NCBI GenBank assembly: GCA_022778585.1
Contig: JALFTI010000006.1
Location: 1 to 64,000 of the forward strand
Length of the DNA stretch: 64,000 nt
Source of the DNA: Pygmaiobacter massiliensis
Lineage (GTDB): Bacteria; Bacillota; Clostridia; Oscillospirales; Ruminococcaceae
Reading direction: 5' to 3'
A model generated the notes under the pieces. That model searched no databases. It saw only the letters and a program-made list of their open reading frames with translations, and was not told the DNA's origin. The stretch's first letter is position 1; each line of letters opens with the position of its first letter. The position numbers and the translations under genes are program-made. Shown one piece after another: positions 7,982-14,676 of this stretch.

Positions 7982-9154
7982 TTAGGGCTTTGAGGAAAGC
8001 GTATTGGAACCGGCAGAAGACTGGCTGACGCTTTCCGCCAGCTCTTGCTCTGCAGGGGTAAGGTCTTCGGCCGGCTGACCCGACAAAGGATTGGTACCAT
8101 TGATGGTGAAATTCAAAAATTGGTCTAAGCCCACCACAGCAATATAACTTTTACCGCAATTTAGTTCGACCTCTTTTTCCTCGTTTCCAGGAGTCAAAAT
8201 CTTCAAAGGATCTTCGGGCGAACCTTTTGCCCAGCGGATGGGTTCGTAGCTGCCGTTTGAAAAGCAGTACCCGACACCGCCATAGCGATAATCTACTTTG
8301 CTTAATACCCCGTTGGGCTGGGTGGTAATTTCGGTAAACAAAACAATCAGGTTGGTAAAGGAAAGCTGTTGGCCAGTTAAGGCGTCAATTTGCGGTTCGC
8401 CCTGCTGGCTTTTTTGGTATAAACCCGAAACAGCATCATATGAAAAGTCGCTGTAGTAGGTAGAAGAAAACTGCAGATGCAGGTTCTCCGCCCCGCTAAT
8501 TGCAAGGGAGCGGGGGGCTTCCTTATAAGAGCGGAAATGGAAGATGGGATCATACTCTTCGCAGCTGGCAGAGAGCTTGTATTTTTCTATGCCTGCAGAT
8601 ATTAGCTGTGGGCTGGTATACCAGCAGTGTTCAATCAAACGGGACTCATGCCGCTCTTCATCCAGCCAGAAGGCCACATCCCGAACGGTGGACGGGTTTC
8701 CGTCCAGATCCTTGTCGGAATAATGGTAGGTTTCCAACAGATCACTGGCTGTGTTGGAAGAGCCAATATGCACCATCAGGGGACTAAACGGCAAGACCAA
8801 CTGCAGATGCTGGTCCCGGGCTGAGCGGACCGGTCCAATATAACCGCCGGCTTTTGAAATGTCTGAATAGACGGCCAAAAACCGGGTAATGCCCCCCTCG
8901 GTGACAATTTCGTAAATAAGATCTGCTCCTCCGATACCGGACTGCGGCAAGGAGTCGGAAATGTTGTTTACCATAACCGCTATCGGTCGCTGTCCGTAGG
9001 GATAGCCGGCATCTTTTTCGAGCCCGGTGAGGGGATTGGGGTTATATTCTGGCAAAACGGCGGGGCGAGCGCTGCTTTCGGCCTCCTTCCCGCAGCCGGC
9101 TAACAGGCAGCAGGCCAGCAGACAACAGGCAAAGCGTGTAAAAAAACGGTTCAT
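7982..9154 (-). CDS. DUF3048 (YerB-like) lipoprotein, paralog 2
   Basis: Lipobox LLAGC; YIGPVRSARDQHLQL. Confidence 0.88.
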   Translation of the reverse strand: MNRFFTRFACCLLACCLLAGCGKEAESSARPAVLPEYNPNPLTGLEKDAGYPYGQRPIAVMVNNISDSLPQSGIGGADLIYEIVTEGGITRFLAVYSDISKAGGYIGPVRSARDQHLQLVLPFSPLMVHIGSSNTASDLLETYHYSDKDLDGNPSTVRDVAFWLDEERHESRLIEHCWYTSPQLISAGIEKYKLSASCEEYDPIFHFRSYKEAPRSLAISGAENLHLQFSSTYYSDFSYDAVSGLYQKSQQGEPQIDALTGQQLSFTNLIVLFTEITTQPNGVLSKVDYRYGGVGYCFSNGSYEPIRWAKGSPEDPLKILTPGNEEKEVELNCGKSYIAVVGLDQFLNFTINGTNPLSGQPAEDLTPAEQELAESVSQSSAGSNTLSSKP

Positions 9155-9465: not shown

Positions 9466-10674
9466 TCAGGATTCCGCGGTCTGCTCAGCGGCAGCTTCTG
9501 CGGCTGCGGCGCTGGCGTCCGCATCGGGGGCAGAGTCTGCCACGCTGGAATCAGCACCGGTGTAGGTGAAGTTGTCGTATTCATCCAGGTCCACAATGGC
9601 TACATAGCTGCGGCCGGTGTTTACCTTCAAAGCATTGTCGCCAGACATATCGGTAAAGCGCAGTACCTGGTTGGTCGCACCCTTGAACCAGCGAATCTGC
9701 TCAATAACACCGCCGTTTACATAGAAACCATAACCGCCAAACTCGTAGTCTACCTTCTGGTAATCCGGGTCACCCTTGTCATTGCCGTTGGCGTCCAGGT
9801 TGCCGCCCGGGTAGTAGTACGGCTCAATGTCGGCAAACAGTACAAACAGGTTATCAAAGGAAACCTGCTCCCCATCGTTCTCGTCATAGGTGGGGGTGAC
9901 ACCCTGGCTGGACGAGTACATGCTCATCTTATACTGGTTGCTGGTAGTATCGTAATCAAAATAAGTGCGGTAGCTGTCCGAGTGTACAATACCAAGGGAA
10001 AGTGCGCTTTCGCCCTCCAGCTGACGGGCGGGCTCGTCATAGTTTACAAAGTCGAAAATGGGGCTGGTCATGGTGTGTTCCATGTCCACATCGTTGTTTT
10101 CCAGGTAGCTGGTCAGCAGTTCCGCATTGGTGTAGGCGGTATGCTCCTGTTTGTAGCCTTGGGCCAAACGGTTCTCGTCAAAATAGGTGATTTTGGCGTA
10201 GCGGCCGTCCACATCAAACTCATTATAGTCGGAATCGTCAATATAAGTCTGGGTAATGCCGCTGCGGCCGATGTGCACATACAATGCCTGGTACGGCACA
10301 ATAAGACGGAAGAACTGGTCACGGCCGGAACGAACCGGGCCGACAGTGGGAAGGTTCTCGTAGTCATCAAAAAGACCCATAAAACGGGTAATGCCGCCTT
10401 CCACCTTGCTTTCAAACAGCACCTTGGCAGAATTCAAACCACGCTGGGGCCGGCAGGCGGAAATGTTATTGATCATGATAGCCACGACCCGTTCGTCTTT
10501 ATAATCGTCGGGCTTTTCCACACCAGTCAAGGGATCGGGGTCATAGACCGGGGTGGGGGTCGGTGTGGGTTCGGCAGAACTGGTGCTGCCGGAAGAAGAA
10601 CCCTTACTGCTGCAGCCGGTGCACAGTGAAAGTGCCAGCGCAGCGGCCAACAAAACGGCAAAAAAACGCTTCAT
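9466..10674 (-). CDS. DUF3048 (YerB-like) lipoprotein, paralog 3
   Basis: Lipobox LCTGC; PTVGPVRSGRDQFFRL; SD GAGGAG before ATG at 10674. Confidence 0.87.
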   Translation of the reverse strand: MKRFFAVLLAAALALSLCTGCSSKGSSSGSTSSAEPTPTPTPVYDPDPLTGVEKPDDYKDERVVAIMINNISACRPQRGLNSAKVLFESKVEGGITRFMGLFDDYENLPTVGPVRSGRDQFFRLIVPYQALYVHIGRSGITQTYIDDSDYNEFDVDGRYAKITYFDENRLAQGYKQEHTAYTNAELLTSYLENNDVDMEHTMTSPIFDFVNYDEPARQLEGESALSLGIVHSDSYRTYFDYDTTSNQYKMSMYSSSQGVTPTYDENDGEQVSFDNLFVLFADIEPYYYPGGNLDANGNDKGDPDYQKVDYEFGGYGFYVNGGVIEQIRWFKGATNQVLRFTDMSGDNALKVNTGRSYVAIVDLDEYDNFTYTGADSSVADSAPDADASAAAAEAAAEQTAES

Positions 10675-10982
10675 ACTAAAACTCCTCACAGGCGGAAATC
10701 CGCCCTTGTGTTAGTCGGCGCAGCAGAAGGTTCTGCTGCATGTGGATGGCGAACCAGACTTTATTAAATATACCCCAACCCACCGGTTTTGTAAAGGCGG
10801 GAAGAAAGGAAAAACGGGCCAAAACCTTTAACATTTTTTTAAAATGCACAAGCTTGTAGTTTATATAACGAAACAGAACAGGAAAATACTGCAAATTTTT
10901 GTTGGCTTTAAAATTCTTTTTTGTATTTCGGCGCTTGGCCCAAAAGCGGAAAAGGGCACCGATACAAATGAAAACATATGTC

Positions 10983-12444: not shown

Positions 12445-13119
12445 CTACCTTTTTTCCATCCGCTTCCAATTGGTGAAAGCGTAAACATCGTTCATAAAAA
12501 AGGCAATAAAGCAAACAACTACCGAAACATAGGTATAATCTTCCATGGAAGCTAAAACCCACAGAACAATCAGTACCAGGTCGTTTGCTGCATAGCACAA
12601 AGCGTAGAGCGGACTTCTGCGAAGGGTTAGATAAGCTGCAAGGAAGCTGGTGGTGACGGATATAGTGCTTGGAATCAGATTTGCAGTGTGAAAATACCGG
12701 AGAATAAAATAAAACACAGCTGTTACCGCGATAGCCAGTATAATCATAAACCCATATTCTGCATATGTTAATTTATTTACCGTTACCTCTGCCTTGTTTC
12801 CCTGGTAAGGATTTTTGAGCCATGTGATGAGGGCAAAAACGGCCATCGGCGTGGTCATGCCCAAATAGGTTAGCATTTCTCCGTAATAGGCAAAGGAAAA
12901 GAAAATAACGCCGTATAACAGGCTGAAAACGATGGTAAGCGCTTGCCCCACCGGGTTCCCTTTGGCAATAAAAATCAAAGAAGACACACCAATGAGAGAG
13001 GCAATCAACTTAAAATAATCCTCACAGCGAAATGCAAAAAAGGATATGGTTATCATCAAAACGGAACCTGCCCACAAGGGAAGTTCTCCATTTGAAAAAT
13101 AACGGGATTTGGTTTTCAC
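12445..13119 (-). CDS. pnuC: PnuC-family nicotinamide riboside/mononucleotide transporter
   Basis: PnuC-like TM pattern (WAGSVLMITISFFAFRCEDYFKLIASLIGVSSLIFIAKGNPVGQALTIVFSLLYGVIFFSFAYYGEMLTYLGMTTPMAVFALITWLKNPY). GTG start at 13119 preceded by TAAGGAGGTCTTT; the upstream ATG in the ORF track (13155) lies inside an RNA hairpin. Confidence 0.8.
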   Translation of the reverse strand: MKTKSRYFSNGELPLWAGSVLMITISFFAFRCEDYFKLIASLIGVSSLIFIAKGNPVGQALTIVFSLLYGVIFFSFAYYGEMLTYLGMTTPMAVFALITWLKNPYQGNKAEVTVNKLTYAEYGFMIILAIAVTAVFYFILRYFHTANLIPSTISVTTSFLAAYLTLRRSPLYALCYAANDLVLIVLWVLASMEDYTYVSVVVCFIAFFMNDVYAFTNWKRMEKR

Positions 13120-13190
13120 AAAGACCTCCTTAGAAAAAAGCATCCGCAAACACATCTTCTAAGACCTAACGATGTGCAAACGGATGCTTT
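13117..13190 (-). promoter_or_regulatory. Candidate cis-regulatory RNA (hairpin with loop complementary to SD region) upstream of pnuC
   Basis: Minus strand: AAAGCATCCG-TTTG-CACATC-[GTTAGGTCTTAGAA]-GATGTG-TTTG-CGGATGCTTT-TTTCTAAGGAGG; loop CTTAGAA is complementary to TTCTAAG at the SD. Confidence 0.6.
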
Positions 13191-13350
13191 GTGCATTCTG
13201 CTACCCGGTGGCAGCTTGTTTTCGTTTCATTTAAACTGTATTGCAGCAGCTAAGCATGAAAAATACAACATGTTTTCCAGGCAATAACTGCCTCTAGCAT
13301 CAACATAAAAACTCATCTGGTTTTGCTGGCGCAGCCAAAACGGTTTGGTG

Positions 13351-14487
13351 TTACAGGCTTTTTACAAACCGCTCCATCCGGTCCATGCATTCGGCCAGCA
13401 CATCATCTGCATAGCAGTAGGAGATTCGCAGGTAGCCTTCCGCGTCAAAACACCAGCCGGGAACGGCGGCGACCAACGCTTCTTTGATCATGCGGCGGCA
13501 GAAGGTGTCGGAATCGAGGCCAAATTTTTTAATGGAAGGAAACACATAAAAAGCGCCTTCCGGCTTAACCGCTTCCAGCCCCATATCGGCCAGCCGGCTG
13601 CAAACAAAGTCGCGCCGGCGGCGGTAGGTTTCCCGCATAGCGGTGGTGTCCATGGTAAGGGCCGTTTCACAGGCATGCTGTACAAAAGCCGGTACCGAAA
13701 CAATGGTGTTTTGGTTTACTTTCTGCAGCTCGGCGCGCACGGGGGCATCGGCACAAATATAGCCAACCCGCCAGCCGGTCATGGCATAGGGCTTGGAAAA
13801 ACTGTTTACCAAAATCAGCCGGTTCCGCAGCTGCCGGAAAGAAGCCAAGCTGCGGTAGTTTTCGGTGAAGACCAGCTGGCTGTACACATCATCGCAAATA
13901 ACGAAAATATTCTTTTCCAGCGCAAATTGGCACACATTTTCCAGGCTTTTTTCGTTTAGCACGCATCCAGTGGGGTTGGTGGGAGAGTTAATGACAATAG
14001 CCTTGGTTTTGCTGCTGGCCGCTTTTTCCAGGGCCTCGCGGGTGATCTGGAACTGGTCATCGGCAGTGGGCATGGCCACATATACCCCGTGGTTCAGCTT
14101 AATAATGCTTTCATACACACCAAAAGCCGGGGTGGGTACAATCACTTCATCGCCCGGGTCGATTACCCCAGTAAGGGCACAAAAAAGTGCACCGGTGGCG
14201 CCGGCGGTAACAATTACCTCGTCAGCGGTGTAATCATAGCCGTTGCGCTCTGCTTCAAACCGGGCAATGGCCTGGCGCAGGTAAGGTTCGCCGTTTCCCT
14301 CTGGATAATGGGTCAGGTTGCTTTCAAGGTCTTCCGATACCTTGGCCTTGATTTTGTCATTGGTTTCAAAATCCGGCTCGCCGATGGTCAGCATCAAACA
14401 GCCTGGCTGTGCTTTTGCCAATGCGCCGTACTCGCGGATGCCGGACATTTTGACATCCAAAACGGCTTTGCTCATTCGTTCCTTCAT
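13351..14487 (-). CDS. Pyridoxal phosphate-dependent class I/II aminotransferase
   Basis: PLP-Lys motif NSFSKPYAMTGWRVGY; NSPTNPTGCV; start chosen at 14487 (MKERMSKAVLDVKMSGIREYG). Confidence 0.9.
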   Translation of the reverse strand: MKERMSKAVLDVKMSGIREYGALAKAQPGCLMLTIGEPDFETNDKIKAKVSEDLESNLTHYPEGNGEPYLRQAIARFEAERNGYDYTADEVIVTAGATGALFCALTGVIDPGDEVIVPTPAFGVYESIIKLNHGVYVAMPTADDQFQITREALEKAASSKTKAIVINSPTNPTGCVLNEKSLENVCQFALEKNIFVICDDVYSQLVFTENYRSLASFRQLRNRLILVNSFSKPYAMTGWRVGYICADAPVRAELQKVNQNTIVSVPAFVQHACETALTMDTTAMRETYRRRRDFVCSRLADMGLEAVKPEGAFYVFPSIKKFGLDSDTFCRRMIKEALVAAVPGWCFDAEGYLRISYCYADDVLAECMDRMERFVKSL

Positions 14488-14676
14488 ATTTCTCCCCGCA
14501 GTTTTGTAGATTTTTGGCAATAAGTTGTGGTATGATAGCCAGGGAACAAAAAACGGTTTGCAGTTTGCACCCGGGCTGGCAGTTTTGCCGTTTGTTTACT
14601 AATTTATCTTAAACCAAACGGCGCTGCTTGTAAAGAAAAAACGCACCGGCGCTGCTTTACAGGAAAGGAACGACCC

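Follow-up and report, generated by a model that had tools for sequence, protein, structure and literature searches.

The pnuC gene on the minus strand of the window (the whole 64,000-nt stretch of Pygmaiobacter massiliensis DNA that was analysed) is preceded by a structured RNA that very probably belongs to the guanidine-IV (mepA/GGAM-1) riboswitch class and would act as a transcriptional ON switch in the pnuC leader. As such, it is another member of a known riboswitch class, located at a kind of target (pnuC) that has already been reported. The assignment draws on the structure of the RNA, its conservation and covariation, its gene context and its mutually exclusive folds; guanidine as the ligand and the direction of switching are what membership of the class would predict.

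Architecture and conservation of the pnuC leader

The initial annotation had described a minus-strand hairpin upstream of pnuC and interpreted it as a terminator-like structure within a cis-regulatory RNA. Direct reading reproduced the sequence it gave, and the 10-bp outer stem, the UUUG/UUUG internal loop, the 6-bp inner stem and the U-run are all present. The minimum free energy of the region 13200–13100 is -29.7 kcal/mol versus -20.5 ± 3.1 kcal/mol for shuffled sequences (z = -2.99; 0 of 200 as good). A terminator-like hairpin in a structured cis-regulatory RNA before pnuC is supported. The reported hairpin is real, but it is only the 3' half of the switch. The overlooked 5' half (13214–13191) contains a further hairpin, the loop of which is paired to that of the reported one, and the conserved block in the upstream regions of PnuC relatives opens 24 nt 5' of the reported hairpin. 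The features, with the evidence for each, are as follows (all on the minus strand).

13130–13214, minus: whole probable guanidine-IV-type riboswitch (aptamer and terminator); covariance models R1 (94.5 bits) and R2 (69.6 bits)
13201–13214, minus: P1 hairpin CUGCC-ACCG-GGUAG, 5 bp; fully paired (100% of cells) across 35 pnuC leaders, 99.3% with compensatory changes in 28 MATE/SMR leaders
13207–13209, minus: 5' strand of the kissing loop, ACC, in the P1 loop; covariation with 13166–13164
13193–13196, minus: linker strand AUGC of the candidate antiterminator helix; partner GCAU at 13187–13184, covarying in the pnuC group
13184–13187, minus: GCAU, used by both the candidate antiterminator helix and the 5' strand of the terminator; linker covariation test and growing-transcript folding
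13181–13190, minus: terminator outer stem, 5' strand AAAGCAUCCG; folding and covariation
13171–13176, minus: P2 inner stem, 5' strand CACAUC; covariation in pnuC and MATE/SMR leaders
13157–13170, minus: P2 loop GUUAGGUCUUAGAA, the conserved core; invariant or nearly invariant alignment columns, published mutation data (PMC11611296, PMC7736828)
13164–13166, minus: 3' strand of the kissing loop, GGU; covariation in pnuC and MATE/SMR leaders
13151–13156, minus: P2 inner stem, 3' strand GAUGUG; covariation in pnuC and MATE/SMR leaders
13137–13146, minus: terminator outer stem, 3' strand CGGAUGCUUU; folding and covariation
13134–13139, minus: U-tract; direct reading, U-rich in aligned leaders
13125–13131, minus: Shine-Dalgarno sequence AAGGAGG; direct reading
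12445–13119, minus: pnuC with GTG start, PnuC-family transporter, the putatively regulated gene; PF04973 (E 1e-30), TIGR01528

The proposed start of pnuC at GTG 13119 is supported as the likely one: the codon comes after AAGGAGG (13131–13125), and orthologous starts sit just past their U-tracts. It is preferred over the longer ATG frame, whose ATG 13155 begins within the terminator hairpin. The sequence immediately upstream of the window copy yielded no sigma-70 promoter; across orthologs, a TATAAT-like box within one mismatch occurs there in 71 of 79 upstream regions versus 49 of 79 after shuffling. Elsewhere in the window, two adjacent minus-strand genes (7982–9154 and 9466–10689) encode similar lipoprotein-like products and appear to be tandem paralogs.

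The element is present at 43 of the 51 loci that encode a relative of the window PnuC, 39 of them recognized by pattern search and four (L003, L014, L026, L048) by covariance model. Across 35 pnuC leaders, P1, the ACC/GGU kissing loop, the inner stem and the terminator stem are paired in 96.4% of the alignment cells, with both-sided changes at 11 of 23 pairs, more than in any of 500 shuffles or any slid control. The kissing pair is AU, GC or GU in 32, 2 and 1 of these leaders, respectively, and the first kissing pair of 28 MATE/SMR leaders is A-U in 14, G-C in 13 and G-U in one, so that all 28 are paired; relatedness inflates such counts, and the AU/GC exchange is nevertheless seen across many genera. 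The covariation is evidence for the kissing loop as well as for both stems.

A pseudoknot mediated by the P2 loop had been proposed previously, with the loop sequestering the Shine-Dalgarno region and thereby controlling translation. The loop does pair; its partner is the ACC of the upstream P1 hairpin and not the Shine-Dalgarno region. The 7-nt complementarity CUUAGAA/UUCUAAG is present in the window, and none of 200 shuffles reaches it locally. Complementarity of at least 6 nt linking the 3' part of the loop to the U-tract/Shine-Dalgarno region was found in 1 of 77 pnuC leaders, that of the window alone, and the loop covaries with P1 instead. The pairing with the Shine-Dalgarno region is a coincidence private to the window. 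In most orthologs the Shine-Dalgarno sequence comes directly after the U-tract and is unsequestered, which points to control by transcription termination rather than translation.

Gene context and the encoded transporter

A covariance model built only from pnuC leaders, with the window among its training rows (R1), scored 94.5 bits on the window, the top score of its own genome. Searched against overlapping sets of 392 genomes from the class and 399 from the phylum, R1 matched 73 and 21 genomes, respectively. The first downstream gene at 90 further R1 loci, classified by blastp against representatives, was pnuC (44), MATE (22), SMR/SugE (6), PNPOx-like (6), radical-SAM-like (2, a label read from the sequence) or DUF1989 (1), with no class given at nine. 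When 60-residue pieces of the representatives were searched with Pfam, SMR, DUF1989 and Pyridox_ox_2 exceeded their cut-offs, and MatE (E 5e-4) stayed below its own.

A second model (R2) was made of MATE/SMR-linked RNAs only, which had themselves been fetched with the pnuC-trained, window-containing R1. It recovered the window element with 69.6 bits (E 3e-13), the next hit in the window reaching 12.2 bits. Across the 2.0-Mb own genome, R2 found nothing besides the window element, and a Pfam search detected no SMR gene there.

Several arrangements were observed at individual loci. In a genome of the same genus (L003/L148; L148:1501-2823), the riboswitch is followed by a PNPOx-family-like gene and then by pnuC, which suggests a shared pathway. 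A PNPOx-like gene also lies directly behind the RNA at L094, L096, L097, L106, L112 and L144. One genome carries two riboswitch copies about 2.9 kb apart on the same contig (L085 and L114), one of them before pnuC. A MATE-linked example had no blastn match among plasmids.

No match to Rfam was obtained for the window at the gathering score or at E ≤ 10, the presence of the NAD-II model in the copy used being taken as given; the suggested scans, run on both the window and the local region, returned nothing relevant. Six loci with SugE-, MATE- or DUF1989-linked examples, used as a positive control, were not matched either. Since these control examples are also missed, the family is absent from the Rfam copy used, and this is why the window element goes unrecognized. 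Absence from Rfam is here no evidence of novelty, and leaders of this kind would be missed by routine annotation.

A guanidine-type switch in front of a gene whose annotation is nicotinamide riboside (NR) transporter corrects the automatic reading of that gene: an NAD precursor is probably not what the protein transports, a doubt that may extend to other gut Firmicutes carrying this PnuC clade. The only PDB relative of the window PnuC is the PnuC structure 4QTN. Two aspartates, D180 (88/88) and D211 (86/86 readable sequences), are found throughout the clade; the residues aligned to them in Neisseria mucosa PnuC (4QTN) are I190 and S221, and E. coli PnuC is likewise not acidic there. The WxxW motif of the two proven NR transporters (W182/W185 in 4QTN; NWLLW in E. 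coli) is replaced in the window clade, the first position being Y or F and the second mostly A, G or C. Riboswitch-less pnuC genes of the same clade have the same aspartate and WxxW pattern. Judged from the protein sequences, the aspartates and the loss of WxxW speak against NR and would fit a small cation. The window-clade PnuC is probably not an NR transporter and, as Lenkeit et al. suggested, probably transports guanidinium; no published test of PnuC for guanidine transport was found in the literature searched.

Proposed switching mechanism

By analogy with the class, the second hairpin would complete its outer stem when no ligand is present, the U's would follow, and transcription would terminate. 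With guanidine bound, the ACC of the P1 loop would kiss the GGU of the P2 loop while the polymerase is still synthesising the outer stem; the full terminator would then fail to form and pnuC would be transcribed. In the pnuC-linked branch, a helix between the linker and the strand also used by the terminator probably assists as an antiterminator.

In folding of the growing transcript, the aptamer is complete at 66–68 nt, and the aptamer together with the linker helix is predicted at 66–71 nt. From 75 nt the linker helix is gone and the full terminator has formed, which places the takeover between 71 and 75 nt. The linker helix of the window, AUGC/GCAU, is short (4 bp, -2.6 kcal/mol); the orthologs L110 and L063 have a longer one. 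Among pnuC leaders, the linker tends to pair with the terminator 5' strand through different sequences, such as AAUGC/GCAUU, GAAUGUU/AACAUUC, GGUAC/GUACC, ACGAAU/AUUCGU and UAGAUGC/GCAUCUA, among others. Summed over 25 sequences whose terminator strands differ from one another, the linker-helix score was 233, compared to 182 ± 13.5 after swapping strands (reached in 1 of 1000 swaps) and 163.5 ± 11.9 after shuffling linkers (0 of 500); the sequences are related, and these frequencies are therefore not strict probabilities. This test superseded an earlier, noisy one that had taken the terminator boundaries from raw minimum free energy folds. The signal is absent in the MATE-linked leaders (90.5 vs 90.4). 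We regard the linker helix as a candidate antiterminator. It would offer a concrete answer, at least for the pnuC branch, to the question of how a guanidine-IV switch prevents termination; the text of the discovery paper considers steric exclusion without settling on a mechanism (PMC7736828).

Relation to known riboswitch classes

Gd4v RNAs share the overall fold and most of the conserved nucleotides with guanidine-IV, have a residue other than G at a position named D1, occur mostly in gut bacteria and also control MATE genes, according to the text of Lenkeit et al. 2022 (PMC9788692), and the window element might on these grounds be a variant of that kind, folding as guanidine-IV and sensing a different ligand. 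One pnuC leader (L015, 1375–1476) indeed has an extra apical hairpin in its P2 loop that resembles the Gd4v feature D2. The window P2 loop, however, is 14 nt long, with no predicted hairpin and no D2, and the window core is identical to the core of many MATE-linked RNAs. The genes behind the element are those of guanidine-IV and not the transaminase and GNAT genes of Gd4v; pnuC and SugE belong to the guanidine-IV gene set, while that paper states that Gd4v is never linked to SugE, and its text does not mention pnuC. We consider a Gd4v-like identity improbable. L015 keeps the conserved G despite its D2-like hairpin and is a possible intermediate between guanidine-IV and Gd4v. A ligand-switched subclass within the pnuC set was also considered and dropped, the core nucleotides being the same as in MATE-linked RNAs. 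The gene upstream of the element (13351–14520, minus) encodes an aminotransferase, and Gd4v RNAs control transaminases; the link looks like a coincidence because this gene is located 5' of the element and carries none of its own.

It is very improbable that the element is a plain intrinsic terminator of this aminotransferase gene with no switching function. The hairpin and U-tract do make a good terminator and the upstream gene has the same direction, but unpaired nucleotides are conserved in both loops, the kissing loop covaries, and the element stays fixed directly before the downstream gene across genera and gene families.

An NAD-precursor sensor whose P2 loop blocks translation, the reading proposed by the initial annotation from the exact 7-nt complementarity and the PnuC annotation, is hardly tenable even though pnuC is an NAD+-II target in Streptococcus (PMC7749635), since P1 is the conserved partner of the loop, the same RNA precedes SugE and MATE genes, and the RNA matches guanidine-IV and no Rfam family, NAD-II included. 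NAD+-II (the pnuC motif) likewise lies before genes annotated pnuC; it has a motif of its own, with P1, P1a and a possible pseudoknot, and its consensus figure includes the ribosome-binding site and start codon. It was first found only in Streptococcus (PMC7749635), and the window has no sequence match to it.

The guanidine-IV class is the closest comparison for the pnuC leader. The text of Lenkeit et al. 2020 (PMC7736828) describes an ON switch made of two pseudoknotted hairpins, of which the second is a terminator, with a KD of about 0.2 mM; its targets include the PnuC and MATE families, suggested as possible guanidine exporters. In the window element, too, a kissing loop (13209–13207 with 13166–13164) connects P1 with a Rho-independent terminator hairpin, and SugE/SMR, MATE and PnuC are common to the published gene list and the R1 loci.

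The correspondence extends to single nucleotides, as mapped from the positions stated in the text of the papers. In the C. botulinum RNA, single-molecule work identified A29-U72 and C30-G71 as kissing pairs and G77 as important (PMC11611296); these equal A6-U51, C7-G50 and G56 of the window element. Mutation of L. lactis G66, U67 or G72, or of C. botulinum G71 or G77, abolishes binding or kissing (PMC7736828, PMC11611296); the three L. lactis positions equal G50, U51 and G56 with identical spacing, and G 13159 is the counterpart of C. botulinum G77 as well as L. lactis G72. The 90% conserved G62 of the L. lactis RNA could be matched to the window only if the L. lactis loop is one nucleotide shorter. 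The ligand-sensitive window of the C. botulinum RNA peaks at nt 88 and its terminator construct is at 105 (PMC11611296), which, counted from U72, correspond in the window element to nt 67 and nt 84.

A difference from the guanidine-IV RNAs as described in the texts consulted lies in the pnuC branch, where a covarying linker helix competes with the terminator; those texts mention none. We tentatively suggest that the pnuC-linked guanidine-IV RNAs could form a mechanistic subtype with a linker antiterminator, controlling a clade of PnuC-fold guanidinium transporters in which D180 and D211 are probably intramembrane and WxxW has been lost.
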